From a virus, in the IMG/VR virus record IMGVR_UViG_3300025087_001553, positions 1 to 43,263 of that record: a stretch of 43,263 bases of DNA, one strand, 5' to 3'. This document shows positions 606-43,263 of the stretch, one piece after another. Position numbers and translations under genes: made by a program. The notes under the pieces were generated by a model. It ran no database searches. It had not been told where the DNA came from and was given only the letters and a program-made list of their open reading frames with translations. Each line of letters begins with the position of its first letter. Position 1 is the first letter of the stretch.

Positions 606-3129
<2,524 letters not shown>

Positions 3130-24718: not shown

Positions 24719-24808
24719 ATGCCTGAATATTTGGAGCTTATTGAGGTTGATAACAATATTTTTGAAGAGGAGGAGTTTGAAGAGGAAGGTGAGGATAAAT
24801 ATTTATGA
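24719..24808 (+). CDS. 29-residue acidic peptide coupled to RNA ligase
   Basis: The ORF starts MPEYLELIEVDNNIFEEEEF and continues EEEGEDKYL. It starts 31 bases after a consensus promoter and ends with ATGA, sharing bases with the RNA ligase start at 24805. Such an overlap favours translational coupling. It may be a real acidic peptide or a leader that sets translation of the ligase. No family is recognised. Confidence 0.5.
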   Translation: MPEYLELIEVDNNIFEEEEFEEEGEDKYL

Positions 24809-25815
24809 GAAAATTGGTAACAATACAAAGGGTTCGAGAAAAAAGGGTTATCCCAAAAGCTGATTTCATTGAATCTGTTAGGATAAACGATTGGTGGGTC
24901 ATTGTTAAAAAAGATGAGTTTAATGTCGGTGATTTAGTTTTATATTATGAGATTGATTCGTTTTTGCCAATAAAGCCTGAGTATGAGTTTTTGTTAAGAG
25001 GATCAAAGCCGAAGAAGATGTTGGTTGATGGTGTTGAGGTCGAAGGTATACGGTTAAAAACAGTAAAATTGAAAGACACAATAAGCCAAGGGCTTGTAAT
25101 GCCTATCTCTTTGTTGGGTGTAGGTATAGAGGGTATGGTGGAGGGCTTGGAAGTGTCTGATTTGCTTGGGGTGATAAAGTATGAAATGCCAATCCCCGCT
25201 TATTTATCGGGTAAGGTAAAAGGGTCATTCCCAAATTTTATCCCAAAAACAGATGAAGAGAGGATTCAGAACATGGGCGGTGTTTTGTCGAGGTTCTATG
25301 TCACAGAAAAATTAGACGGATCGTCCATTACATTTTATAAATTTGATGGAGTATTTGGTGTTTGTAGTCGTAATTTGGAATTAGAGGAGAGTGACGTTAC
25401 TCAGTGGCGATTAGCCAAAGAGCTTAATCTGCCAGATAAGCTTCCTGACAACATGGCTTTGCAAGGAGAGCTTGTAGGCGAGGGTATTCAAAAAAATCCA
25501 TTAAAACTATCCGGGCAAAAGGTATTTTTCTTTAATGCTTATAATATAAAATCAGGGTGTTTTTTGGATTTTATAGATTTTGTTCAATTGTGTGAAGCAT
25601 TAAACCTTGACGTTGTGCCTGTAATTGATGATAACTTTATCTTGCCAAAAACAGTTGATGATATGTTAAGATATGCTGATGGCAAGAGCATGCTAAATCC
25701 AGAGGTTGATCGTGAGGGTGTTGTTGTTAGGTCAAAGGTAGAGTCTGGATATAGGGGTGGGAGGTTATCGTTTAAGGCTATTTCTAATAAATATCTTTTA
25801 GACTATGACGCATAA
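24805..25815 (+). CDS. ATP-dependent RNA ligase, Rnl5 (DRB0094) type
   Basis: This 336-residue protein has the N-terminal OB-like module typical of Deinococcus RNA ligase: MRKLVTIQRVREKRVIPKAD, then WWVIVKKDEF and DLVLYYEIDSFLP. The nucleotidyltransferase core follows. Motif I is TEKLDGSS with adenylated Lys169, and the next segments are ALQGELVGEG (motif III region), REGVVVR (motif IV) and LSFKAISNKYLL (motif V). Family members seal nicks in RNA with 3'-OH and 5'-phosphate ends, which differ from the ends joined by RtcB. All motifs are intact. The ATGA overlap with a peptide ORF and a consensus promoter upstream suggest early, coupled expression. Confidence 0.92.
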   Translation: MRKLVTIQRVREKRVIPKADFIESVRINDWWVIVKKDEFNVGDLVLYYEIDSFLPIKPEYEFLLRGSKPKKMLVDGVEVEGIRLKTVKLKDTISQGLVMPISLLGVGIEGMVEGLEVSDLLGVIKYEMPIPAYLSGKVKGSFPNFIPKTDEERIQNMGGVLSRFYVTEKLDGSSITFYKFDGVFGVCSRNLELEESDVTQWRLAKELNLPDKLPDNMALQGELVGEGIQKNPLKLSGQKVFFFNAYNIKSGCFLDFIDFVQLCEALNLDVVPVIDDNFILPKTVDDMLRYADGKSMLNPEVDREGVVVRSKVESGYRGGRLSFKAISNKYLLDYDA

Positions 25816-30239: not shown

Positions 30240-31683
30240 CGATTTACAATTAAAACTTTTAAGAGACCCAAAGTTTTATCTTGAAAATTTTTGTAAGATA
30301 AAAGGAAAGAAGCCCGGAAGCCTATTGCCATTTGTGCTTAAAGAATGCCAAAAGGATCTTTTTAATACATTGCGGGTGAATAATAGGGTTATGATCTTGA
30401 AGGCCAGACAATTGGGGTTTTCTTCTGCTATGGTGGGCTATTTTTATCACAACACAATTATGAACCCAGGAACCAATACGGCTATTATTGGATATAACAG
30501 TCAGCTTGTGACAGAGCTTTTGGATAAGGTTAAGACATTTCACCGCACAACACCAGAAGAGCTTAGGCCTACAATTGAATATAATTCAAAATATGAAATG
30601 AGTTTCCCTGCGATGGATTCTAAGATAATTGTGTTGCCATCAACGGAATATGTAGGACGGGGCTATACTTTACACAATGTTTTGGTTACGGAGTTGTCTT
30701 TCTGGGATAAGGCAGATGAAAAAATGAGTATTTTAGAGGCTTCTGTCCCCATAGACGGAAAGATTGTTATTGAAAGTACGCCAAATCAAATTGGAGATAG
30801 GTACCATAGAATGTGGATGGATGATAATAATGGTTATATTAAAAAGTCATATGGTTATCACTGGGGATATACTGATGACGAAATAAACTTGATTAGGAGA
30901 CGCCTTAACGATCCAAAGAAGTTTGCTCGTGAATACTTGTTGCAATTCATGTCGTCAGGGCGTCCAGTATTTGACCAAAACGTTATCCTTGAATCTCGTA
31001 AAAATATTTTGGGAGAGAACGATGTGGTTGAAGTCGGTGACGGCAAAAAGCATATTGTTTCAATGGAAGATGGTTTTAGAATTTATAAACCAATAGACCC
31101 AGGAGGATTGTACATATTTGGGGTTGATACCTCTGAAGGTATGGAGGACGGTGATTATTCTGTTATTATTGTTTGGGACAGGAAAACGGGTGAAGAGGTC
31201 GCTTTATATAGAGGACTTGTTCCTCCAGATAGGTTGGCTGATAAACTTGATGTGTGGGGTCGTAGATACAATAACGCCTTGATGGTGGTAGAGGTTAATA
31301 ATCATGGACTTACTACACTCACATGTTTAAGGCAAAAACTATATCCTAATCTTTATTTTCGTCCATCGAAATTTGAAACTATGGGACAGCCTGTTAGTGA
31401 TAGGTTAGGGTGGAAGACCAATAAGGTTACACGACCACTTCTTATAGACGAACTTGCAAAGGCGTTGAGGGATGGAGAGATAATTATTCACAGTAAAGAG
31501 CTTTTAGATGAAATGACCACAATGGTTTATAACGATAACGGTGATATGGTATCTCAAAGGGGGTATCATGATGACTGTATTTTTGCTGCTGGTATAGGGT
31601 TACAAGGATTTAAGGTAATGTACGATAAAGAGTTGACGCAGATAGATTATTCAAAACACCTTCCTTCTTCATTTTCATATTAG
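30229..31683 (+). CDS. terL: Terminase large subunit
   Basis: This 484-residue protein has a packaging-motor ATPase with Walker A-like LKARQLGFSS (about residues 58-67), Walker B VLVTELSFWD and motif C IVIESTPN. A nuclease domain follows with FGVDTSEGMEDGDYS, VEVNNHG and YHDDCIFA acidic residues. It drives genome packaging and cuts concatemers. The start at 30229 has GGAAG upstream, one of the few Shine-Dalgarno-like sites in the window, and overlaps the small terminase. It is intact. Confidence 0.95.
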   Translation: MKNNDLQLKLLRDPKFYLENFCKIKGKKPGSLLPFVLKECQKDLFNTLRVNNRVMILKARQLGFSSAMVGYFYHNTIMNPGTNTAIIGYNSQLVTELLDKVKTFHRTTPEELRPTIEYNSKYEMSFPAMDSKIIVLPSTEYVGRGYTLHNVLVTELSFWDKADEKMSILEASVPIDGKIVIESTPNQIGDRYHRMWMDDNNGYIKKSYGYHWGYTDDEINLIRRRLNDPKKFAREYLLQFMSSGRPVFDQNVILESRKNILGENDVVEVGDGKKHIVSMEDGFRIYKPIDPGGLYIFGVDTSEGMEDGDYSVIIVWDRKTGEEVALYRGLVPPDRLADKLDVWGRRYNNALMVVEVNNHGLTTLTCLRQKLYPNLYFRPSKFETMGQPVSDRLGWKTNKVTRPLLIDELAKALRDGEIIIHSKELLDEMTTMVYNDNGDMVSQRGYHDDCIFAAGIGLQGFKVMYDKELTQIDYSKHLPSSFSY

Positions 31684-31705
31684 TTAATTTATATAATTTT
31701 TTGTT

Positions 31706-33808
31706 ATGGTTAGAAACCAATATTTAGCGTCTGATTTTGGTGATGTAGAGTTGATAAGAACATTCACACTTCAAAAAGATGATGCAAAGAGATATTTTGA
31801 TGTTTGTATAAAACCAAGGTTTGATAGATCTTATAAGCTTTATGTCGCTTATAATGGTGACCGGGCACAGCAAATAAAGGCATGGCAGGCAAACTTTTTT
31901 GTTCCTTATGTAAACTCTGTAGTTGAGACCTTAATGCCTCGTATCCTTGATGCTAGACCTGATTTTTCCGTTATGGGCAGAACTGAGAATGACCAGTTAA
32001 AAGCAATTAAGGTTCAACAGCTTGGAGAGTTTTCTTGGGAGATTGCAGGTATGGACCCTACAACTGAAAATTTAGTTAGAGCGTCAATGATTTATGGGAT
32101 ATCTTTTCTTCAGGCTAGTTGGAAACAGGATATCCGTGATGGTTTATTTTTGCAGACAAAGGATATTTCTAAAAAGAAGCTTAATTATAAAAAGGAAACA
32201 AGGACATTTTATGACGCCCCATATGCTGAATATGTTGACCCATACGACCTTTGGTATGATTGGCATAATATAAAAAGAGAGGATAAACAGTATTGGTTTA
32301 GGCGTAGGGTTATTCCTGGTTCTGTTATTAAAAGAAGTTATCCTGGGGCAGATAAAAAGAGGTTAGAATTAGCTCTTAACAAACCAGGTGGGGATTTAAC
32401 AGATTTTGCCAATATTAGAATGGAGGTAAAGTCAAATCACGATAAAATTGTAAAAAATGCAGACAGATCTAATGCTGGTGTTGCTAGTGGTGTAAATGTA
32501 TATAATGTTGATAGGTATGGGTCTGAAACGTCTAGGGATTTGCGGATGTATGAGGTTTTTGAATGGTGGAGACCATATGAGGACTCTTATGCGGTTATGG
32601 TTAATGATGTTCCAATTCTTAGGGGCGGTTCAATCCCAATACCGTATGATTTCAAGGAAGCACCATTTATAGAATTTCCTTATTTAAGACTTCCAAATGA
32701 GTTTGAAGGGTATGGATTACCAATGCTTTTAGAGAATCCACAGATAATGCTTAATATGATTAAAAATCAGAGGTTGGATGCAGTTACCCTTAATATCCAT
32801 AAAATGTGGATTGTTAATCCTCTTGCCAATGTAAACAAGGATGAATTAGTAACACGACCATTTGGTATTGTTTATTCAGCTGACCCGAATGGTGTTAGGG
32901 AAATTCAGTTTAGTGACGTTAAAGGTAGTGCCTACAAGGAAGAAGAATTGCTTAAAGGCGATATGCGTTATGCTTCAGGCGTTGATGATTTTTCAATGGG
33001 TCAGGGCGGTGGTGCTAACAGTGCGACTGAAATTCGTCATTTAAGAGAATCAACGCTTGAGCGAGTGAGGTTGTTTGTTAATCATTTAGGCGATGGTTAT
33101 GCTACTCTTTTGAGGTATTGGATTTCAATGTATAGACAGTTTTTTACTGACAATCTTATTATTCGTATAACTGGAGATGATGGCAAAGACGCTTTTCCCT
33201 TAATAGAAAAAGATGACATATTCGGTCAATATGATTATAAGGCTACTGTAATGCCGTCTATTGCTGGGAAAAACGATATAGACAAAAAACAAGGGATGGA
33301 TTTATTCCAGTTGCTTTCTCAGTTGCCTTTTGTTGACCCTAAAAAATTAACTTCAAAGGTGTTGCATAGTTGGGGGTGGTCTTTGGATTCCATTGTTAAA
33401 AAAGAAGACGACACTTTATCACCTGATATGGCTGGGATGGTTGGGCCAGACGGCATGCCTGTCCCAGGCGGTGAATTGCCGATTCCTAATGGTCAAGTGC
33501 CACCATATCAACAGCCATCAGGTCAATCATTACCAAGTATATCTTCTGGTGAAATACCGGCAGGTGTTGTGCAACAAGCAATAGCTCTTCTCGGTGGAGC
33601 AACTTCAAATTCTTCATTCAGGGAGGCAAGTGCTCCGATTAATCTTTTAAAAGCTGGGGCATTACCCCCAACAGCTCCAAAAATTGGTGGGACAACAAAC
33701 CCAGGGGGTTTCAATCGTGGTGGAAAGGTTAACACTAATATACCTATTAATACTGAATATAACCCCGAGGCTAATTTATTAAATAGAGTAAATAATATTC
33801 AACGTTAA
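31706..33808 (+). CDS. Portal protein (P22-like)
   Basis: This 700-residue protein starts MVRNQYLASDFGDVELIRTF. Landmarks are QANFFVPYVNSVVETLMPRI (residues 56-75), the helical LVRASMIYGISFLQASWK region, FIEFPYLRLPNEFEGYGLPM and the long stem helices around EIRHLRESTLERVRLFVNHL. A disordered Pro/Gly-rich tail follows. This is the portal/connector plan (P22 type, about 700 residues). It forms the dodecameric DNA gate at the capsid vertex. The gene is intact and follows terL. Confidence 0.92.
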   Translation: MVRNQYLASDFGDVELIRTFTLQKDDAKRYFDVCIKPRFDRSYKLYVAYNGDRAQQIKAWQANFFVPYVNSVVETLMPRILDARPDFSVMGRTENDQLKAIKVQQLGEFSWEIAGMDPTTENLVRASMIYGISFLQASWKQDIRDGLFLQTKDISKKKLNYKKETRTFYDAPYAEYVDPYDLWYDWHNIKREDKQYWFRRRVIPGSVIKRSYPGADKKRLELALNKPGGDLTDFANIRMEVKSNHDKIVKNADRSNAGVASGVNVYNVDRYGSETSRDLRMYEVFEWWRPYEDSYAVMVNDVPILRGGSIPIPYDFKEAPFIEFPYLRLPNEFEGYGLPMLLENPQIMLNMIKNQRLDAVTLNIHKMWIVNPLANVNKDELVTRPFGIVYSADPNGVREIQFSDVKGSAYKEEELLKGDMRYASGVDDFSMGQGGGANSATEIRHLRESTLERVRLFVNHLGDGYATLLRYWISMYRQFFTDNLIIRITGDDGKDAFPLIEKDDIFGQYDYKATVMPSIAGKNDIDKKQGMDLFQLLSQLPFVDPKKLTSKVLHSWGWSLDSIVKKEDDTLSPDMAGMVGPDGMPVPGGELPIPNGQVPPYQQPSGQSLPSISSGEIPAGVVQQAIALLGGATSNSSFREASAPINLLKAGALPPTAPKIGGTTNPGGFNRGGKVNTNIPINTEYNPEANLLNRVNNIQR

Positions 33809-33812
33809 ATAT

Positions 33813-33983
33813 ATGGTAAACAACAAAAGAAAGTGGATGCAAGAGATTTTATCTCGTATAACAGGAAATCGGTATAATACAAATATTAAAGAGCGTAGAT
33901 ATAACAAAAAGAATATTGATAAGAACACTTTAGAAAAATTAAAAAGGAAAAACCTAGATAAAGTTTATATACACGAAGCTTAA
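33813..33983 (+). CDS. 56-residue basic protein, function unknown
   Basis: The protein starts MVNNKRKWMQEILSRITGNR and is rich in Lys, Arg and Asn. It begins 4 bases after the portal stop and ends 12 bases before the next gene. It is a small basic protein of the head module, possibly nucleic-acid binding or structural. It is not recognised. Confidence 0.5.
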   Translation: MVNNKRKWMQEILSRITGNRYNTNIKERRYNKKNIDKNTLEKLKRKNLDKVYIHEA

Positions 33984-33995
33984 TTATATCATTAT

Positions 33996-34214
33996 ATGAC
34001 TAGTAAAAAAAACGGATGGGTAGTATCATTATTATCAAAATTGTTTAAGAAAAAAAATAAAGAGCAAAAACTTAATCCATTATATGACTCAACGCTCAAG
34101 CCTACACAAAAAATATTAAAAGAAAAAACTGATTATAATAGGGAGTTGCTTCCAGATGAAAAGAAACATTGGGATAGGGTATTTAAAACAATAGACTGGA
34201 CAAAGTGGCGTTAA
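33996..34214 (+). CDS. 72-residue basic protein, function unknown
   Basis: The protein starts MTSKKNGWVVSLLSKLFKKK and has a helical Lys-rich middle and a Trp-containing end (HWDRVFKTIDWTKWR). The amphipathic N-terminal helix could associate with membrane or protein. It lies in the head module between the portal and capsid-assembly genes. It is not recognised. Confidence 0.55.
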   Translation: MTSKKNGWVVSLLSKLFKKKNKEQKLNPLYDSTLKPTQKILKEKTDYNRELLPDEKKHWDRVFKTIDWTKWR

Positions 34215-34240
34215 AAATTATTAATAACTTATGAAGATTT

Positions 34241-34624
34241 ATGCCTAGAAAAAAGAAGGTGGCAGGTGAGGTTACTCAAGAATCACTAAAAGGTTCTGAG
34301 GAGACTACACCAAATAGTGATGTTTATTCAATGCCAAAGGATGAGTTTGATAACTTTTTAGTCAGTATTTGTGATACTCCATTTTGGCATGCGTTAAATC
34401 GTTTTGCTCAAGAGAGAAATTATGACCTTATAAGTCTTTTGGGGTATATAGATTCATACAAGAATCCCCATGATATGTCTAAGACTCAAGGGAAGCGTGA
34501 GGGTGAGTTTGATTTTATTAATTATGTAAATGAATTGGTAAAAAGAAAAAACATGACACCCGAAGATTTGTTAGCACTTGAGGAAGCAGAAGCAAAATCT
34601 ATGGGTAACTACACAAAATATTAG
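34241..34624 (+). CDS. 127-residue head-module protein, function unknown
   Basis: The protein starts MPRKKKVAGEVTQESLKGSE and has a disordered basic N-terminus. A helical domain (ICDTPFWHALNRFAQERNYD) follows, then an acidic end (PEDLLALEEAEAKSM). By position it could be a head-completion or assembly factor. It is not recognised. Confidence 0.6.
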   Translation: MPRKKKVAGEVTQESLKGSEETTPNSDVYSMPKDEFDNFLVSICDTPFWHALNRFAQERNYDLISLLGYIDSYKNPHDMSKTQGKREGEFDFINYVNELVKRKNMTPEDLLALEEAEAKSMGNYTKY

Positions 34625-34635
34625 CCAATATAGTG

Positions 34636-34651
34636 GGACTTGTGTTATAAT
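34636..34651 (+). promoter_or_regulatory. Extended -10 promoter, copy 3 (capsid genes)
   Basis: GGACTTGTGTTATAAT, the third exact copy of the 16-base block. The shared stretch with copy 2 extends into ATAA on the right. It lies 39 bases before the gene at 34691. Confidence 0.8.
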
Positions 34652-34690
34652 ATAAGAAGATTTAGTAATAAAACTTTAATAATTTGCATT

Positions 34691-34990
34691 ATGGCAGATA
34701 AGTATACTAAAAATCAGATGGCTAAAGAGATAACAAAAATGGTTAAGATGAAAGATGTAGGTAAAAAAATGGAGGAAACAGAAATGCCATTAACAGCATC
34801 TAATAGTGATGTTTATTATCCCAATCTTTATTTAAGCACAAAGCAGGTACCATCATTATCTGGCTTAGAGGTTGGTGATGAGTGTGTTTTTGTTGTCACA
34901 ACAAAGGTTATTCGTCACGAGATTAACGAAACTGATAACAACTCAAAGGAATGTTTTGATTTTGAGGTTAGAAAAATTGGTAAAATATAA
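34691..34990 (+). CDS. 99-residue virion-associated-type protein
   Basis: The protein starts MADKYTKNQMAKEITKMVKM. After a helical N-terminus comes SDVYYPNLYLSTKQVPSLSG and GLEVGDECVFVVTTKVIRHE, a small beta-barrel-like half. The pattern YP.LYL...Q.P.L....VGD...L...KV occurs in phage proteins next to capsid genes, as I recall. A capsid-decorating or stapling role is only a guess. The start at 34691 follows promoter copy 3. Confidence 0.6.
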   Translation: MADKYTKNQMAKEITKMVKMKDVGKKMEETEMPLTASNSDVYYPNLYLSTKQVPSLSGLEVGDECVFVVTTKVIRHEINETDNNSKECFDFEVRKIGKI

Positions 34991-34997
34991 ATAATTT

Positions 34998-35147
34998 ATG
35001 ATGTATGACAATATGCCAAGGACAGCCATGTCATCTAAGGTTGAAGGCAGGCTTAAAGAGTCTATGGATGTTCGTAAAAAGAAAAACAAGCTGGCTAGAA
35101 AAATGGTTGATCGATATGGTGGTGTTGGTGGTAAAAAAATGTATTAA
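34998..35147 (+). CDS. 49-residue basic protein, function unknown
   Basis: The protein starts MMYDNMPRTAMSSKVEGRLK and ends VDRYGGVGGKKMY. It has a Lys/Arg-rich helix and a Gly-rich end. It begins 7 bases after its neighbour. A very small virion or assembly protein is possible. It is not recognised. Confidence 0.45.
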   Translation: MMYDNMPRTAMSSKVEGRLKESMDVRKKKNKLARKMVDRYGGVGGKKMY

Positions 35148-35165
35148 ATAATTTATAAAAAAACT

Positions 35166-35318
35166 ATGAAGAATGTTATCACGGGGAAAATAGTCTCTTT
35201 AATCGGAGATAAACTGAAAGAGCAAAAGTTAAAAGAAAAATCTGGTGGTGATATTAATTTGGGTAATTTAGCGAAAAAACTGGCAGAAAGGAAGCAGACT
35301 ATTTCTAGCGAACAATAG
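35166..35318 (+). CDS. 50-residue basic protein, function unknown
   Basis: The protein starts MKNVITGKIVSLIGDKLKEQ and is helical and Lys-rich with NLGNLAKKLAERKQTISSEQ at its end. Spacing from neighbours is normal for this module. It is not recognised. Confidence 0.45.
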   Translation: MKNVITGKIVSLIGDKLKEQKLKEKSGGDINLGNLAKKLAERKQTISSEQ

Positions 35319-35380
35319 TGAGTTCATTTGTTTTTTACAATATATTTTGTCTAAGTAATTATTAATTATGAAGTAAACTT

Positions 35381-36229
35381 ATGGCTAAAGAAGCAAACAA
35401 CACAGAGTCCACAAACAAAGACGTGGGAGCCCCTGTCTCGGATCTACCTAAATCGCCAAATGATTTAGGCAGGCAGCCCGAACCGTCTTCAAACGCTAAC
35501 AATGAAGGTGAAAAGAAGGAAGATGTTAATCTTAGTGATTATGTCCCTAAGACTGACTACGAAAATTTAGTTGAGAAGCTTACTGAGCAGGGTGGTGAAC
35601 TTGGAGACCTTAGAAAATTCTTCAATGAAATATCACCCCTATTAGAAAAGCTTCACAGCGACCCTGAATTAGCTGAGGCTATCTTGGATGACAAGATTAA
35701 CTCCAGTTTATTACAGGATGTTTTAAGTGGTAAAATTAATAAAGAAGATGCAACCACAATGACTAGTGCCTATAAAGAGGTGAAAAAAGAATTGGGGGAT
35801 AAAAAGCTTGAAACTTTAAATTCCGATGCGATTGAGGAGCTTGTTGAGAAAAAAATGCAGGAAAAAATGTCTAAGGTCGAAAAAGACCTTACTCATAACA
35901 TTTCTGAAATTGAAGAAAAGCGAAGCTTTGAAAAAAGCGTTGAAAGTTTTATCAATACGACAAGCGATTTTCCTGAATACGCAGACGCAATAACCAAATG
36001 GCTTGAAGACCATCCTGATGTTTATGACATTAATGTGGCTTACTATGCGGTTAAGGGTGAAAATGAAGCCCAAAAGGCGGTTAAGGATAAAGAAAAAGAG
36101 GAAGCCGAAATAGCTAAAGGTAACGCCTTAAACGCTAGTGGCGGAGGGTCTCAAGGTGGTCGAATGCCATCACAGACTCCAACCATTGACGATTTTATTG
36201 GAGGACCTAGTAATCCAAATTCTTTTTAA
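35381..36229 (+). CDS. Capsid scaffolding protein
   Basis: This 282-residue acidic protein starts MAKEANNTESTNKDVGAPVS. A disordered Ser/Asn/Pro-rich N-terminus is followed by long charged helices. Coiled-coil stretches include VEKLTEQGGELGDLRKFFNE and VEKKMQEKMSKVEKDLTHNI, and a Gly/Ser-rich end closes the protein. Composition and position directly before the major capsid gene fit an internal scaffold that shapes the procapsid. No protease motif is seen. Confidence 0.8.
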   Translation: MAKEANNTESTNKDVGAPVSDLPKSPNDLGRQPEPSSNANNEGEKKEDVNLSDYVPKTDYENLVEKLTEQGGELGDLRKFFNEISPLLEKLHSDPELAEAILDDKINSSLLQDVLSGKINKEDATTMTSAYKEVKKELGDKKLETLNSDAIEELVEKKMQEKMSKVEKDLTHNISEIEEKRSFEKSVESFINTTSDFPEYADAITKWLEDHPDVYDINVAYYAVKGENEAQKAVKDKEKEEAEIAKGNALNASGGGSQGGRMPSQTPTIDDFIGGPSNPNSF

Positions 36230-36270
36230 TCTCATTTCAAGGTATTGGGATTATGGTTTAAAGATTTTAT

Positions 36271-39200
36271 ATGGCACAATTTCCATATTATAGCGAGCCT
36301 AAAAATGGGTGGGCACCCGTGCAGTAATGCACGGAGGGTAATATTGGAAAACAACAAAATGCTGGAAATTCTTGTTAGAAATTCATTACCTAAGAGTAAA
36401 AATATGGATTTAGAGAAAATCAGCAGCGAGAATATTAATAAAGAATTAGCCTATTTGTTTGGAGTTTATCTTACTGATGGGTGTATATCTAAAAGTAAAG
36501 ATAAATATGGATATTATTATAATTTTTCTTTAAGGACGATAGACATTGAGTTTGCAGATAGAACACTTGCTTGTATAAAACTGTTAATACCGTCTTGTCG
36601 TGCGAATATTAATCGCCTCGAGCCGATAGACAGGCATTGGCCAAACGGTCACGTGTCAAAAACACAAGTACAATACTGTATAAATGTTGGGTTTAAAAAG
36701 TTAAAAGATATATTTTGGGAGCAGACAAACAAGAAAACGCATATACCCTTTGTCATATGGCGTGCACCAGATGTGATAAAAAAACATTTTATCGCAGGAG
36801 TGATGGATGGTGATGGGTGGATATCTAAAACTTTGAGACCAGATAAGGAAAACATTCAATATAGAATTGGTGTTGGCAAAACTGAGGGTAGTTGGATATT
36901 AGAGTTTAAAGACTTTTTAGAAAAATTAGGTGTAAAAACATTAAAAATAGAACGTAATTTCTCTTCTGGTAGAAAAAAGGTGTTAATCTGTTTTGGGATA
37001 AGAGTAGAATCGTTTATTGATCACGGTTTGTTTTTCACTATATTCAGAAAACAAAGTAGAATAATTGATTTTATTAATAGACGTTCAGAGACTAAACGTT
37101 GTGAATCCTTTGGGATTAAGATATAGTCCGATCTTTATAGAGATATAAAGTAAACATTGATTGACCCACAATCAGGGGGCGGTGGCTTCTGCTGCTAGAG
37201 ATACTTCAACGTCATCTACTGAGCAGCGATTAGTAGTGGATGCCGTTGATAAAGTCTTCTTACTTGAACCTCGCAAGCATCCGCTTACAACCTTACTGAC
37301 TACTGTTGGTAAAGTGTATGATGGTAAGGCTTGGACGGGAGCTGGTATTCTTAAAAAGGAAACAGGCAACCCAGAGTTTAAAAAATCCACTTGGACTCTG
37401 GTTTAACAAAAACTTTGCTTATATGCTGGAAACTCCGAGTATCTAATAGTACTGATTAGTAAAAATCTATTAGTGCGGACAATCAGCAGGGAAAAAATAA
37501 AATATATGATTAATGATAGTGACTTTTTTTGGTTGGCCGGAATTATTGATGGAGAGGGATATTTAACAACCAATAAACGTCAAGGAGTTCATAAGAAAAG
37601 AAACAATGGTAATGGACAATATTCGTTTATTACAAGGATAGGTGTTGGTAATACTGATGTTGAATTGATAAAGAAGGTTTCTGAAATATTTTATGTGCTT
37701 GGAGCTAAATTTTATTTTACTCTTCATACTCCTAATAAAAAGTTTGTCAATGCAATGGATTATCTGTCTATTAACGTAGAGGGATATAGATCAACTAAAA
37801 AAATACTAGATGCAATAATAGATAAATTGCACTCTAACAAAAAAAGACAAGCTAAAAAAATACTCGAATACATAGAGTATAGACTATCAATGTTTCAAAA
37901 GAGAAATGTTAATGGTACACTGTGCTCTAAAATTAAGAAAGAGCAGTTTGAGTCTATTGATAAAAAGTTCGAAGAATCTCTTAGATATCTTAAGCATTAT
38001 CAAATTTTGCCCTCAACGACTAGACGCAAAGCGTCTACCCCTTTAGAAATAATAGGTGGTAGTAAAGATATAGTCTGATCTATATAGCGATATATAGAGG
38101 CATATGCCCCAGAGTAAGTCTGGTAACAAGCTTCAATGAAGTGGTTTAGAAAATTCTCGGACCACTAAAAATTTAACTATTTGCTGGAATAACCTAAAGT
38201 CATAATTACTACTAAGTAAAAATATTATGAATAATACAATGGTCAATCAGCAGGTAACTACACATCAAATTGCATGGTTAGCGGGCGTATGGGATGGAGA
38301 GGGAACATTCACCATAGTATATGATACTAATAAACGATATGTTCCAAGAATAACTCTATCTAACACCGATGTAGTAATGATAAATGAGATTATAAAAATA
38401 TTTGATGCATCTGGCATCAATGGTCACATTTGGCAAGAAACAACATCTAGAAAACCTAATCATAAAAAAGCTTATCACATAACGGTCAATAAAATGGAAG
38501 ACGTTAAGGTGATAACAAAATTGATGCTACCGTATCTGATTTCAAAAAAGCCAAGGGCTGAATTACTTTTAAGATTCTTAGAATCTAGGAGTTATTATAA
38601 GTCTAAGGCTGAGAGAGATTCTAAAACTGGTCGTGTTCTTGGGATAATAAAACAAGGATATAGTGATGAAGAAAAATCATTATTTGACCAGATGAAGGAA
38701 TTAAATCAAGTAGGTATTAAAGTAGAAACCTCAGAGACTACACGTTAAACATCCTTATGGATGATGATATAGTCCGACCTCGTGCGATATCACGAGAATT
38801 ACACAGAAATGATGTAATACCCAATTATGGGTTAACAAATGCGAAGATTTTTATGGCGGACGTTACGCAAAGGTAAGTGGAACTTATTCCGCTTCAGGTG
38901 GTGTAACAATTACTGTAACTAGTGCTGGGTCTAGCTCGGCTTATATTTTCACGGTTGGTGACGTTATTCTTAACGCCAGAACTGGTGAAAGAATGCTTGT
39001 AGCTACGATTGCTGGTGCAACAACAATTACTATTGCTTCAGGTGGCCGTTCGCTCGGTGCGACTGCGGCTGCTGCTGGAGCTGATGGTGATGGTTTGTTC
39101 TTGATTGGTAATGCGAATGAGGAAAATTCAAGTGCTAAGAACATTAACACTACACAATCCTCTCCGCTGACCAACTATACTTTAATAAAAATTTGGGTAT

Positions 39201-40862
39201 AGTAAAATTCAACTATATGCTGGGATATCTTGTTATGGTGTAAATAGGATACTAGGCGGTGAAAACTACTAGCGAACCCTAAGAATTTTACACATAGAGA
39301 CAATCAGCAGAAAAGATAACTATGTATATTAATTGTAAACAGTGCAACAAACTATTTTATCAAAATAGAAAAGATAAAATATTTTGTTCAAAAAAATGTG
39401 TTTATAAAAATTATAACGACAGAAGACCTAGAAAAACAAATAAAAGTTATTCTAAGGCTAGAACATTAAAAGGTGAAAGTATATCAAAAGAGAAAATGTC
39501 AATTATTTACGGCACATTATTGGGTGATTCATCATTGATATTACAAACTGACGGTTTTCATAGATTGTCACTATGTCATTGTGAAAAGCAATTAGATTAT
39601 CTCTTGTTTAAGAAGCAATTGTTGAATGAAATTTTTTTACAAGATAATGTTAATAGGTATAACAATAACGGTAATATTCAATATCATACTCACTCTATTT
39701 CTCATCCAAGCTTAACTAACATATATGGAATTTTTTATAGAAATAAAAAAAGATATATAACAAGACGTGGGTTAAACTTGTTAGATGAGGATTCTTTATT
39801 ATTTTGGTATCTTGACGATGGATCTTATATAAAATCAAATGACTCTATAATTATTTGTACTGATAGTTATACATTATCTGAAGTTAAAGGTATAAAAAAG
39901 TGGTTTTGGCAAAAATTTAATATAGAGGTTAAAATACTTCCAGTTAAAGGGGTATATGGTGGTGATAGAATGTATTATCGTATTAGATTAAATAAAAAAC
40001 CATCGTTTAAGTTCTTGTCGTTATTATCGCATAGCCAATATTTTAATGGTGTACCATTATCTATACGGTATAAATTTAATAGTTAAATTCTCACAGACTA
40101 TACGTTGAACACACATTTGTGAAGATATAGTCGAGTCTATATGGTGACATATAGTGGTAAACAGAGATGTTTACCCATCATTATTGATGCAATATAAAGC
40201 AAATATTTAAAACGACCATTGGTGTTTCTGACACAGAGAAGAATGCTAATTTGTACGGTGGCCCAGACTTGGTTTATCAAAGAGCCAAAAAGGCGACTGA
40301 ACATGCCCTTGATATTGAACGAGCTTTCATTTGGGGTGAAAAAGCTTCTACTACAGGTAGTAACAGTAAACCGTTACGAACTACAGGTGGTCTCCTTGAA
40401 TTTATTGAGGGTGGTACAGGATTTGTTCAAAATCAAGGTGGCCCATTAACAGCTCCAGACTTTAACACATTTTTACGAGAAGGCTTCACTTATGGTGATA
40501 ACCAAAAAGTATTAATGTGTGGTGGTGTTGTTTTGCAGGCAATAAATGAAATGGCTCGTGGTCAGCTGAGAACCAAAACAGGAGATAAATCTTACGGTTT
40601 GGAAATCAGTGAGTACATGACCCCATTTGGTTCAATCAACATCGTGCACAATCCATTGTTTGTTGAAGAATATTCAGGCTATGCGTTCTTGCTTGATCTT
40701 AATTGTTTCCGATATCGCTTTATGGCGAATCGTGACACTAAGCTCATGATGAACGTTCAGGCCCCTGATGTTGATGGAGAGATTGACCAGTTCATTACTG
40801 AAGCTGGTTTGGAACGAAAACAAAGCCCACTTTGTGCTTTGCTTAAAGGTGTAACTGACTAA
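36271..40862 (+). CDS. Major capsid protein (SU10/DUF5309 type), five exons
   Basis: Proposed exons are 36271-36300, 37164-37379, 38139-38146, 38842-39181 and 40200-40862, giving 1257 nt (418 residues plus stop). The unspliced frame stops after 18 codons. Joined exons read through with family landmarks: DAVDKVFLLEPRKHPLTTLL, NPEF-KW-FEDFYGGRYAKV across three exons, VGDVILNARTGERML, LTNYT-QIFKTTIGVSDTEK across the last junction, and YGGPDLVYQRAKKATEHALD. The junctions restore the NP.FEWFED and NYTQIFRT strings I associate with this family. Each junction is also predicted independently by P1 and P10 pairings. It forms the HK97-fold capsid shell. Confidence 0.9.
36301..37163 (+). mobile_element. 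Group I intron 1 in the capsid gene
   Basis: P1 pairs exon GCCT (36297-36300) with GGGC (36311-36314, U-G at the site). P10 pairs TGGGT (36306-36310) with the next exon ACCCA. P2 is CCGTGCA-gtaa-TGCACGG. Core strings are ATGCTGGAAA (P), AATCAGCAG (Q), GTTCAGAGACTA (R) and AAGATATAGTCC (S). P9 is CTTTATA/TATAAAG, and the last intron base is G37163. Short P1 makes the 5' site a little less sure than in the others. The endonuclease ORF overlaps Q and R. Confidence 0.85.
36404..37126 (+). CDS. LAGLIDADG homing endonuclease (intron 1)
   Basis: This 240-residue protein has two LAGLIDADG helices, LAYLFGVYLTDGCI (near residue 15) and HFIAGVMDGDGWI (near residue 130). It is therefore a monomeric two-domain enzyme. 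The start at MDLEKISSEN is chosen as the first good Met after the intron 5' part. A Met at 36359 (MLEILVRN) is possible. The catalytic Asp of each helix is present. Coding DNA overlaps the Q core sequence at its 5' end and R at its 3' end. It would spread the intron by cutting intronless capsid genes. Confidence 0.88.
   Translation: MDLEKISSENINKELAYLFGVYLTDGCISKSKDKYGYYYNFSLRTIDIEFADRTLACIKLLIPSCRANINRLEPIDRHWPNGHVSKTQVQYCINVGFKKLKDIFWEQTNKKTHIPFVIWRAPDVIKKHFIAGVMDGDGWISKTLRPDKENIQYRIGVGKTEGSWILEFKDFLEKLGVKTLKIERNFSSGRKKVLICFGIRVESFIDHGLFFTIFRKQSRIIDFINRRSETKRCESFGIKI
37380..38138 (+). mobile_element. Group I intron 2 in the capsid gene
   Basis: P1 pairs exon CCAGAGTTT with GGACTCTGG (two U-G at the site). 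P10 pairs CCACTT, just 5' of that guide, with AAGTGG, the start of the next exon, over six base pairs. Core strings are ATGCTGGAAA, CAATCAGCAGG, CAACGACTAGACG and AAAGATATAGTCT. The last base is G38138. The perfect P10 fixes the 3' splice site inside TTCAATG|AAGTGG and thereby defines the 8-nt exon. Confidence 0.92.
37506..38078 (+). CDS. LAGLIDADG homing endonuclease (intron 2)
   Basis: This 190-residue protein starts MINDSDFFWLAGIIDGEGYL, with one LAGLIDADG helix (LAGIIDGEG) at residues 10-18. Single-motif enzymes act as dimers. A later GVGNTDVELIKKVSEIFYVL segment and Lys-rich C-terminus follow. A longer GTG start at 37473 would include the Q core and is less likely. The end overlaps the R core string. 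Confidence 0.85.
   Translation: MINDSDFFWLAGIIDGEGYLTTNKRQGVHKKRNNGNGQYSFITRIGVGNTDVELIKKVSEIFYVLGAKFYFTLHTPNKKFVNAMDYLSINVEGYRSTKKILDAIIDKLHSNKKRQAKKILEYIEYRLSMFQKRNVNGTLCSKIKKEQFESIDKKFEESLRYLKHYQILPSTTRRKASTPLEIIGGSKDIV
38147..38841 (+). mobile_element. Group I intron 3 in the capsid gene
   Basis: P1 pairs exon AGTGGTT with GACCACT, which contains the whole 8-nt exon except its first A. P10 pairs CTCG 5' of the guide with the next exon CGA. Core strings are TTTGCTGGAAT, TCAATCAGCAGG, CAGAGACTACACG and GATATAGTCCGACC. P9 is CTCGTG/CACGAG. The last intron base is G38841, and joining gives TTC-GAA-GAT in frame. Confidence 0.92.
38227..38748 (+). CDS. LAGLIDADG homing endonuclease (intron 3)
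   Basis: This 173-residue protein starts MNNTMVNQQVTTHQIAWLAG, with one LAGLIDADG helix (WLAGVWDGEGTF) near residue 17. It has a KPNHKKAYHITVNKMEDVKV strand and a helical C-terminus. It is probably a dimeric enzyme. It begins inside the Q region and ends just past the R string, so the coding sequence and the ribozyme core share bases. Confidence 0.87.
   Translation: MNNTMVNQQVTTHQIAWLAGVWDGEGTFTIVYDTNKRYVPRITLSNTDVVMINEIIKIFDASGINGHIWQETTSRKPNHKKAYHITVNKMEDVKVITKLMLPYLISKKPRAELLLRFLESRSYYKSKAERDSKTGRVLGIIKQGYSDEEKSLFDQMKELNQVGIKVETSETTR
39182..40199 (+). mobile_element. Group I intron 4 in the capsid gene
   Basis: P1 pairs exon CTATACT with GGTATAG (39196-39202). P10 pairs ATTTG (39191-39195) with CAAAT at the start of the last exon. 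Core strings are ATATGCTGGGA, CAATCAGCAG, CACAGACTATACG and AAGATATAGTCGAG. The last base is G40199. Joining restores NYT-QIFKTT, the expected family string. The intron is the longest of the four (1018 nt). Confidence 0.92.
39322..40086 (+). CDS. LAGLIDADG homing endonuclease with zinc-finger N-terminus (intron 4)
   Basis: This 254-residue protein starts MYINCKQCNKLFYQNRKDKI with CxxC and CSKKC (a small zinc finger, residues 5-26). The LAGLIDADG_2-type domain follows, with IYGTLLGDSSL (near residue 62) and LFWYLDDGSY (near residue 160). It differs in kind from the other three intron enzymes, so the introns were not simply copies of each other. The end is just before the R core string. Confidence 0.87.
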   Translation: MYINCKQCNKLFYQNRKDKIFCSKKCVYKNYNDRRPRKTNKSYSKARTLKGESISKEKMSIIYGTLLGDSSLILQTDGFHRLSLCHCEKQLDYLLFKKQLLNEIFLQDNVNRYNNNGNIQYHTHSISHPSLTNIYGIFYRNKKRYITRRGLNLLDEDSLLFWYLDDGSYIKSNDSIIICTDSYTLSEVKGIKKWFWQKFNIEVKILPVKGVYGGDRMYYRIRLNKKPSFKFLSLLSHSQYFNGVPLSIRYKFNS

Positions 40863-40997
40863 CTCAAATTAGTTCTCTTACATATCCTAATTTATTAGGC
40901 GTCGTAAGCGGGGATGTGACGTAAAATCATTCCCGCCTATATGCTTTGACATATGGCCCGAAACAGCCACGGGTGATTGGCTTTAAAACAATTTATT

Positions 40998-41702
40998 ATG
41001 GCTTCTTTAGATTCATTGCAAATGCGAAGTCTTTCTAAAAAAGGCTTTGTACAGCAAATTTATGACGATGAGGGTATTGCCCTTCGCCTTAGACCGACAG
41101 CTGCGGCTGGTGCTGTTACTTCCGTAACAGTTACAACAGGCACAAGCATTGTTGCTATTTCGGCTAGTGGTGGGACTGAAACATGGGCATTTGCCACTTA
41201 TGACACCGTTGCAAAATTGAAGGCGGTTATTGATGTGAGTGCTTATTGGGATTGTATTGTTCTTGATACATTGCTTTCCGAGACGACTGCAACACAGTTT
41301 GTTGACGGTGCTATTTCTGCTACGGTTGTTGATAGTGTTTCTTATTACGATGTTAAAGTTGACACAAGTGCGGCTGATTACATGGCTGTTTGTGTCACTA
41401 AAACAAGAACTGTTGGTGAGAGTAAACCAAAAGGATCAATGCGTGTTCATCTTAGAGAGATTGAATACAACATTACTTTTGGTGGTGGCGTAGATTCTCA
41501 AGGATTGCGTGTTTATGAACGAAAGGGTTCTATTGAAAACCTTTTGTATTCAAGCACTCCTGCAGATGCAGCGGTGACAAACAAAAATTTTGCTTCTGGT
41601 GAGGGGATTATTACTACACAAGATGGTTACGAATTAGTTGTTTACATGGTTGATGCGACTTCGGTTACTGGCTATGTTGCTGCTATTGGCGAGATTGAAT
41701 AG
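40998..41702 (+). CDS. 234-residue structural protein downstream of capsid gene
   Basis: The protein starts MASLDSLQMRSLSKKGFVQQ. The middle is beta-rich with many Thr, Ser, Ala and Gly (GAVTSVTVTTGTSIVAISAS), and the end carries GYELVVYMVDATSVTGYVAA. Composition and position fit a capsid-decoration or head-tail structural protein. The start at 40998 is preferred to 40977 because ATTTATTATGG is a typical start context here. The 115 bases before it (40863-40977) hold small hairpins (CCTAAT/ATTAGG, GCGGG/CCCGC) and no gene. Confidence 0.6.
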   Translation: MASLDSLQMRSLSKKGFVQQIYDDEGIALRLRPTAAAGAVTSVTVTTGTSIVAISASGGTETWAFATYDTVAKLKAVIDVSAYWDCIVLDTLLSETTATQFVDGAISATVVDSVSYYDVKVDTSAADYMAVCVTKTRTVGESKPKGSMRVHLREIEYNITFGGGVDSQGLRVYERKGSIENLLYSSTPADAAVTNKNFASGEGIITTQDGYELVVYMVDATSVTGYVAAIGEIE

Positions 41703-41709
41703 TTTAATT

Positions 41710-41738
41710 GGGGGGATGGGTTACTCATCTCCCCTTTT
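41710..41738 (+). terminator. Rho-independent terminator
   Basis: GGGGGGATG pairs with CATCTCCCC (one wobble) across a short loop, followed by TTTT. It separates the structural gene from the next one. Confidence 0.75.
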
Positions 41739-41769
41739 AACATATAATTATGAATTAATTTAAAATAAT

Positions 41770-42333
41770 ATGAAGTTTGTATCTAAACAAATAAATTTAA
41801 TGCTTACCTTAAAGCCAGCACTTCAAAGAGAGCCTTTGACTGGCAGACCCGCAGACCCTGGTATACATGTTAGGTTTGCACAGGGTTTGTTTTCCACCGA
41901 CAACGATGATTTAATAACAGCACTTAAAAATCACCCTAGCTTTGGGTATGATTTTGTCCAGGCTGATTCTATGTCTGAAGAAGATATGAAAAGAAATCTT
42001 GATAAGGTTGAGCCTGCTCATGTTATAACTGAGCTGAAATATGGGACACCTGAAAGTGTTGTTGGAGAAAAAAGAATGTTAAAGCTTACGCCTGAAATGG
42101 AAAGATATGTTTCAATTCTAGCAGAAAAAAAGGCATTGGATATTTTGAAACAGATTGCTGAGAATCAAACTGATACTGTTCAGGTAGAACAGCCAGTATT
42201 AGAGAGTAAACCATCAACCGAAATCAATCCATTGTCTACTCCAGGTAATAACTCTAATGATGTTTTAGATGAACAGGCTGTCAATGCTGACGCTGAAAAA
42301 ATAAAAAAAGGTAAGCCAAAAAAGAAAGTATAA
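41770..42333 (+). CDS. 187-residue phage structural-region protein, function unknown
   Basis: The protein starts MKFVSKQINLMLTLKPALQR and contains GRPADPGIHVRFAQGLFSTD. A helical ELKYGTPESVVGEKRM region follows, then a disordered acidic and Pro/Ser/Asn-rich tail ending in a basic KKGKPKKKV. Proteins starting with a short beta domain carrying VRF..G.F.T.D are common after capsid genes in phages. The role is unknown. Confidence 0.6.
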   Translation: MKFVSKQINLMLTLKPALQREPLTGRPADPGIHVRFAQGLFSTDNDDLITALKNHPSFGYDFVQADSMSEEDMKRNLDKVEPAHVITELKYGTPESVVGEKRMLKLTPEMERYVSILAEKKALDILKQIAENQTDTVQVEQPVLESKPSTEINPLSTPGNNSNDVLDEQAVNADAEKIKKGKPKKKV

Positions 42334-42341
42334 TTTAATTT

Positions 42342-43263
42342 ATGGCACACGTAAAAACAGTTAGTGATCGTTATCACTTTCTCTATGACCCATATCTTTC
42401 AGGATTCGACACAACAGAATTGAGAAGGTTTAGTGGCGATGCGAAAGTTTTGGACGGGAAAATTAGATTACACACTGCCAGTATTAGTACCCTCAGGGTG
42501 TTTATGCACGGTAACTTTGAAATGAAGCTTACTGTGCCGACAGCCCCAACAGGCGGAGATTCTCGAGTTTTTGGTTTATATTCAAAAGCATTCGGGAATC
42601 GGAATGCTGCGTACTTTTTTATCAGTGGAACTAATTTTTACGTTAGATCTTATAACGATGATAGTGCAACCCCAGAACAGACAACTGTTCCGTGGGATGC
42701 AACATGGACAAATACACCAACTTCTTTTGAGGTTCGGACAAGAATAGAACGTGTTGAATTTTGGATTGGCAATGGTGATGATAAACGTAAGGTTGCAGAG
42801 CATAATACCACATTCCCAAAGCAGGTTTTACTCCCTGTATATTTTTCTAATGTAGCAAATGATGCTTTTTATATTAACCTATTAAACTTTGGGGAGGTTA
42901 GAAAATCAATCATTGTTCCAAGTAATACGTATTTATCAAGCACCTCAAGCACCTCAAGCTCTACAAGTTCTAGTACCTCAAGCTCTACAAGCTCAAGTAC
43001 TTCAAGCTCTACGTCTTCAAGTACCTCAAGCTCTACAAGTTCTAGTACCTCAAGCTCTACGTCTTCAAGTACTTCAAGCTCTACAAGCTCAAGTACTTCA
43101 AGCTCTACGTCTTCAAGTACTTCAAGCACAAGCTCTAGTACTTCAAGCTCTACGTCTTCAAGTACCTCAAGCACAAGCTCAAGTACTTCAAGCTCTACGT
43201 CTTCAAGTACCTCAAGCACAAGCTCAAGTACTTCAAGCTCTACGTCTTCAAGTACCTCAAGCA
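42342..43263 (+). CDS. Virion appendage protein with Ser/Thr repeat (3' end outside window)
   Basis: The frame is open from ATG 42342 to the right edge, at least 307 residues. Residues 1-195 are beta-rich with aromatic strands (MAHVKTVSDRYHFLYDP, FEMKLTVPTAPTGGDSRVFG, RVEFWIGNGDDKRK), like a jelly-roll or lectin-type domain of a tail or head fibre. From residue 199 on, the sequence is almost only Ser and Thr (STSSSTSS...). Such linkers are usually flexible stalks and may be glycosylated. The start has an AATTTATG context. Confidence 0.75.
   Translation, partial: MAHVKTVSDRYHFLYDPYLSGFDTTELRRFSGDAKVLDGKIRLHTASISTLRVFMHGNFEMKLTVPTAPTGGDSRVFGLYSKAFGNRNAAYFFISGTNFYVRSYNDDSATPEQTTVPWDATWTNTPTSFEVRTRIERVEFWIGNGDDKRKVAEHNTTFPKQVLLPVYFSNVANDAFYINLLNFGEVRKSIIVPSNTYLSSTSSTSSSTSSSTSSSTSSSTSSSTSSSTSSSTSSSTSSSTSSSTSSSTSSSTSSSTSSSTSSTSSSTSSSTSSSTSSTSSSTSSSTSSSTSSTSSSTSSSTSSSTSS
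42936..43263 (+). repeat. Tandem Ser/Thr-coding repeat, continuing beyond window
   Basis: Units such as TCAAGCTCTACGTCTTCAAG and TCAAGTACCTCAAGC (multiples of three) follow each other to the edge of the window. Codons switch among agc, agt, tca, tct and acc, act, aca, acg while the protein stays SSST-like. Copy number is likely to vary and assembly may collapse it. Confidence 0.9.

Follow-up and report, generated by a model that had tools for sequence, protein, structure and literature searches.

A phage capsid gene divided by four predicted group I introns, with an 8-nt exon that both neighbouring introns would use as a guide target

In the 43,263-nt viral contig analysed here (called the window throughout), four group I introns divide the major capsid gene, of SU10/DUF5309 type, into five exons, the third of which, lying between introns 2 and 3, is only 8 nt long (AAGTGGTT). 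This arrangement of exons and introns had been put forward in an earlier sequence-only reading, and the joined reading frame, the homologues, the guide sequences (IGS) of the introns and the intron cores all agree with it. We consider it very probable, from these comparisons, that the gene is functional, that introns 2 and 3 belong to separate lineages, and that the introns are removed stepwise. The gene shows how far group I introns have invaded the gene of the phage's most abundant structural protein.

Exon structure and uninterrupted homologues

Joining the five exons listed in Table 1 (30, 216, 8, 340 and 663 nt, 1257 nt with the stop codon) yields a single stop-free frame of 418 residues. 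The junctions are those first placed by guide pairing, 36300|37164, 37379|38139, 38146|38842 and 39181|40200, and our analysis reproduces them. In a profile search the spliced product matches SU10_MCP (PF17236) at 4.4e-54 over residues 29-417, along the length of the protein, which places it in this family. Its alignment to the DUF5309/SU10 family, on which the sequence-only reading had staked its junctions, crosses all four of them without a gap. The same capsid protein is encoded unsplit in many viral contigs, at 62-70% identity and from residue 1 or 4 to 416 or 417, and also in L063, a contig from a bacterial metagenome-assembled genome.

Table 1. Exons, predicted introns and intron-encoded endonuclease genes of the capsid gene. 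CM, covariance model built from introns of relatives.
Feature	Coordinates	Strand	Details
Exon 1	36271..36300	+	encodes MAQFPYYSEP; homologues run on past the junction as YPYYTEPTHDQG
Group I intron 1, 863 nt	36301..37163	+	IGS 36306-36314 (UGGGU|GGGC); P3 ACAAC/GUUGU; P4 at 36360; P7 at 37090; CM match 37086-37150
LAGLIDADG homing endonuclease ORF, intron 1 (start codon inferred)	36404..37126	+	PF14528 1.5e-07
Exon 2	37164..37379	+	ends ...NPEF; joined frame and homologue alignment
Group I intron 2, 759 nt	37380..38138	+	IGS 37387-37401; P1 CCAGAGUUU, P10 AAGUGG; CM match 38014-38097
LAGLIDADG-type endonuclease ORF, intron 2	37506..38078	+	WLAGIIDGEG motif
Exon 3, 8-nt micro-exon AAGTGGTT	38139..38146	+	K83, W84 and two bases of F85
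Group I intron 3, 695 nt	38147..38841	+	IGS 38157-38166 (UCG|GACCACU); P1 hairpin 38140-38146/38160-38166; CM match 38732-38796
LAGLIDADG endonuclease ORF, intron 3	38227..38748	+	PF14528 5.3e-07, PF00961 1.1e-05
Exon 4	38842..39181	+	joined frame and homologue alignment
Group I intron 4, 1018 nt	39182..40199	+	IGS 39191-39203 (AUUUG|GGUAUAGU); CM match 40092-40154
LAGLIDADG_2 endonuclease ORF, intron 4	39322..40086	+	PF03161 2.1e-29
Exon 5, including stop codon	40200..40862	+	DNA matches of many homologues start exactly at 40200

The joined frame depends on the smallest exon, as omitting exon 3 causes a frameshift and an early stop. Codons 77-92 are unbroken in 24 intronless relatives, in which the codons corresponding to sites 2 and 3 read N-P-E-F-(K/x)-W-F-E-D with few exceptions; some of these relatives bear AAGTGGTT letter for letter at the empty site, and L016, which has other introns, reads GAATTTAAGTGGTTCGAAGAC at its empty site 2/3. 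By alignment, then, the 8-nt exon is genuine coding sequence within the conserved NPEFKWFED motif, and the peptide predicted for the capsid junction is GNPEFKWFEDFYGG. Conservation of the 20 nt surrounding each of these neighbouring sites is high for the gene (percentile 0.87-0.99), which fits homing.

Guide pairing, intron cores and endonucleases

Group I splicing begins with attack by G on the 5' splice site within P1; the freed 5' exon then attacks the 3' splice site, aided by P10, which is dispensable for splicing in some group I introns. In all four window introns the 5' splice site follows a U that is paired with a G of the IGS (P1), and all four have a terminal G and a P10, of 5, 6, 3 and 5 bp in introns 1-4, respectively. 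The guide of intron 2 (CCACUUGGACUCUGG) pairs with 15 contiguous nucleotides of the spliced exons, and that of intron 3 (UCGGACCACU) pairs with 10 nt and has its U-G pair exactly at the splice site.

We scored splice sites without reference to the protein by combining all 5' sites after U with all 3' sites after G lying no more than 40 nt from the proposed ends, using IGS pairing only. The proposed pair ranks first for introns 2, 3 and 4 (among 176, 200 and 104 combinations, respectively) and second of 180 for intron 1, and shuffled intron 5' ends equalled the observed score in 3, 0, 4 and 1 of 20,000 trials for introns 1-4. The weakest P1 is that of intron 1 (4 bp, GCCU/GGGC), for which support comes mainly from P10 and homology. 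An alternative for this intron, 36291|37186, has a better score and a longer P1 and shifts both splice sites; it was rejected because it mismatches the homologues at the junction. For intron 3, P1 by itself would allow a 5' splice site at 38146 or 38147, as either U can pair with G. The latter was discarded, since it would require an intron ending in C; P10, the frame and a terminal G at position 38841 jointly point to 38146|38842.

Each of the four introns has an in-frame stop 18-24 nt inside it, just past P1. Early in-frame stops are frequent in group I introns of bacteria and phages, and on one view ribosome stalling at such stops helps intron folding (PMC3984707), with which the position of the stops in the window introns agrees.

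The core elements P3, P4, P7 and P7' are present in order in each window intron, and all four introns have the P3/P7 pseudoknot core together with P4 and P8. The motifs presumably resemble those of phage group IA2 introns of the T4 td type. Across 15 introns of the capsid gene family, 97.3% of the cells of P3, P4 and P7 together are paired. Their covariation score of 0.384 compares with a mean of 0.126 after shuffling (none of 500 shuffles reached it) and with no more than 0.08 for slid structures; these values support the cores and are not a strict probability, because the set includes related introns and some choice of spacing. P3 and P4 covary, with most two-sided changes in P3, and the P7 strands are nearly invariant.

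A covariance model built from nine introns of relatives, with the window sequence excluded, makes exactly four matches in the 43-kb window, one per intron (54-61 bits, E of 1e-11 or better); all four introns visible to it in the contig sit in one gene. Rfam model RF00028 detected no intron in the window at its gathering score of 50, which is a curator's threshold and not a biological defining feature. At permissive settings it gave 37.2 bits for intron 1 and 36.3 bits for intron 2, leaving introns 3 and 4 unmatched. These low scores can be attributed to the endonuclease ORFs, which split the cores; ORF-less introns of two relatives (L071, L074) reach 62-88 bits with the same model.

Each intron ORF is predicted to encode a LAGLIDADG-type homing endonuclease, by domain match in introns 1, 3 and 4 and by identity to related endonucleases in intron 2, whose product has no Pfam match and is 31% identical to the endonuclease of intron 3 and 48% identical to that of an intron at coding-sequence (cds) position 244 in L098. 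The intron 1 endonuclease is 40-43% identical to those of relatives' introns at site 138, and the intron 3 endonuclease 52% identical to those of same-site introns in L068 and L074. The site of intron 4 (cds 594) is common exactly to L098 and L084, with endonucleases 46-54% identical. The ORF lies on the plus strand of the window intron and its orthologues lie on the opposite strand of the L098 and L084 introns, indicating that the endonuclease ORF was inverted within one intron lineage.

Shared bases and origin of the 8-nt exon

Exon 3 had been described as both the P10 target of intron 2 and the P1 substrate of intron 3, and IGS pairing supports this double role. AAGUGG forms a perfect 6-bp P10 with intron 2 and AGUGGUU a 7-bp P1 with intron 3, so that the two helices take up six and seven, respectively, of the exon's eight bases. 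The accompanying idea that the two introns share these bases stands in so far as both need them; because the helices cannot coexist, sharing should here be taken to mean that the two uses exclude each other in time. In RNA folding models of the unspliced precursor the intron 3 P1 hairpin forms locally, with a probability of 0.91 or more per pair, and its computed stability exceeds that of the intron 2 P10 (-8.1 vs -6.0 kcal/mol).

Each intron would be removed by two transesterifications guided by its own IGS. Since the intron 2 P10 and the intron 3 P1 are mutually exclusive, the joining of exons 2 and 3 and the cut at 38146 would have to be separated in time, or intron 2 would have to splice without its P10. 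In a stepwise course one intron would finish and the other would then use the same bases, which by that time would be linked to exon 2 or exon 4. Either order is possible on paper, given that the target of the remaining intron would be intact after the first removal; we lean slightly towards intron 3 opening first, or towards a stepwise exchange. Accurate splicing would be needed for virions, because skipping of exon 3 shifts the frame.

A more elaborate version of this scheme treats the 8-nt exon as an interlock, in which the P1 hairpin of intron 3 hides the P10 target of intron 2 and so fixes the order of splicing, and in which two homing endonucleases with overlapping targets reside together even though each intron should destroy the other's target. 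We regard it as conceivable and somewhat doubtful; if true, it would provide a naturally occurring example in which two selfish elements have a recognition site in common.

The relatives suggest how such an exon could arise. Intron sites were mapped in them at cds 117, 138, 160, 173, 189, 234, 244, 253, 254, 255, 594, 663 and 708. The site of intron 3 (cds 254) is occupied in L068 and L074, both with site 2 empty, and L069 has an intron with a different endonuclease lineage 1 nt from cds 254. The intron 2 lineage is found at cds 244 in L098, 2 nt from the window site (246), and there site 3 is empty. These single-intron copies indicate that introns 2 and 3 come from different lineages with neighbouring sites, both present in the window copy. 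We infer that they are separate homing lineages with insertion sites 8 nt apart in NPEFKWFED, whose double occupancy would leave AAGTGGTT as an exon. A second assembly with all four introns (L066, listed as L014/L066) is identical to the window over 31380-43120 and, not being independent, was not counted as support. Close relatives of the intron 2 and 3 endonucleases were found only in this twin contig, and farther ones by alignment-based searches.

Partial skipping of exon 3, with the truncated product (82 residues and a frameshifted tail) serving a regulatory role, is improbable. Group I exon skipping has been reported in phages Twort and SIOphi (PMC11878797), but here the shifted frame stops after about 26 codons and no homologue has such a product.

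Even less credible is a twintron, in which introns 2 and 3 would be removed whole as one unit (37380-38841) and the 8 nt would not be an exon. In fungal mitochondria, neighbouring group I modules can be spliced out together (cox3-640, PMC12308204), and phages Twort (in orf142) and SIOphi are known to skip exons (PMC11878797). A twintron has no exon between its modules, however, whereas the 8 nt here are conserved coding sequence that is needed for the frame: direct joining of 37379 to 38842 shifts it and leads to an early stop, the 8 nt encode K-W-F within a motif that nearly all homologues have, AAGTGGTT is identical in some empty sites, and each intron makes its full helix (P10 or P1) with these bases.

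It is likewise very unlikely that the gene is decaying, inactivated by its accumulated introns in a phage that has become defective or relies on a different capsid gene. The load of four introns on a single gene that is essential and highly expressed, together with splicing that is predicted only, might suggest decay; yet the exons hold their frame and about 70% identity to homologues, the four cores keep P1, P3, P4, P7 and P10, no second major capsid gene was found elsewhere in the 43-kb record, and nine further phages retain intron-split copies of the same capsid gene. A chimeric assembly merging two phage populations that differ in their introns, to which a metagenomic contig and the single occurrence of these introns in related phages might point, can be set aside with similar confidence, since a separately listed contig is identical over the span given above (though maybe from the same reads), the joints on either side of exon 3 fit to the nucleotide, and the intron 2 IGS already includes the complement of AAGUGG.

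Short exons also occur elsewhere in the family. L071 (5247-8494) has five capsid-gene introns within cds 117-253, two of them ORF-less (257 and 215 nt), separated by exons of 43, 29, 45 and 19 nt, and two capsid-gene exons of L084 measure 69 and 45 nt. With five introns packed into about 140 coding nucleotides of L071, this region of sites is a hot spot, and the window gene is no isolated case. In L118, L119, L120, L121 and L123, more distant capsid genes (about 31-36% identity) are situated immediately downstream of introns with intron-2-related endonucleases and seem to be interrupted by those introns, mostly near residues 40-75; the hot spot thus seems to reach beyond this capsid family. 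Group I introns end in G; the cds-594 intron of L084 (6051-7237) seems to end in A (GATTGTAA|CAG).

Known systems and other features of the contig

Arrangements of this kind are already known, and the 8-nt capsid exon is an extreme variant of them. Among the closest parallels is placozoan mitochondrial cox1, where a 1-bp micro-exon lies between two group IB introns (PMC5436844). There, as probably here, a second self-splicing group I intron inserted beside a first isolates a micro-exon, and both introns are retained. RNA intermediates of either splicing order were detected for cox1. The cox1 exon, mitochondrial and a single nucleotide long, cannot serve as a full P1 or P10 strand, in contrast to the 8 nt of the capsid exon, which are almost wholly taken up by the intron 2 P10 and the intron 3 P1 and whose flanking lineages each occur alone in relatives. 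Mini-exons of under 4 codons are regular in mitochondrial genes (PMC10352661, the MFannot paper; PMC12308204, Ophiostomatales); they are likewise very short and lie between self-splicing introns, but are organellar, with no phage example given there.

Among phages, cDNA has revealed a 'small exon' flanked by two group I introns in the ribonucleotide reductase gene of phiNIT1, in the same report that describes exon skipping in SIOphi and Twort (PMC11878797). That gene resembles the window gene in this respect but is not a capsid gene, and the length of its exon is unstated in the main text. The capsid gene of a crAss-like Zeta phage is in five fragments with group I intron domains in 3 of 4 gaps (PMC7886860); the number of pieces is the same as here, but the phage group differs and no exon ends or micro-exons are described. 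Mycobacteriophage LittleE also has a group I-like intron in its capsid gene, spliced in infection as seen by RT-PCR and N-terminal sequencing (PMC3706429), though only one, and lactococcal phage Tuc2009 is cited beside it in that paper for a capsid-gene group I intron.

The sequence-only reading held that no capsid gene with such a short exon is known. Our search of the open-access literature yielded no phage gene and no capsid gene with an 8-nt exon, nor an 8-nt phage capsid exon that is a guide target for both neighbouring introns with each lineage occurring singly in relatives. As a general claim to lack precedent, however, the statement was too strong, in view of the mitochondrial mini-exons, phiNIT1 and the five-fragment crAss-like capsid gene.

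With its natural single-intron and empty relatives, the gene offers a compact system for asking whether splicing must follow a set order when P1 and P10 targets overlap. The case further illustrates how capsid genes of phages can be overlooked or wrongly annotated: here, gene callers would output nothing but endonucleases and pieces of the gene, and similarity searches cannot find an exon of 8 nt.

Several other features of the contig may be recorded. An RtcB RNA ligase of 714 aa (7996-10140) contains a LAGLIDADG domain, and an apparent intein sits between its GVDIG and CGM motifs. A phage-encoded GroEL-type chaperonin and an RNA ligase are present at 1477-3129 and 24805-25815. At the contig end (42944-43262) there is an imperfect 45-bp tandem repeat of about 7 copies, which is assembled differently in the twin contig L066.
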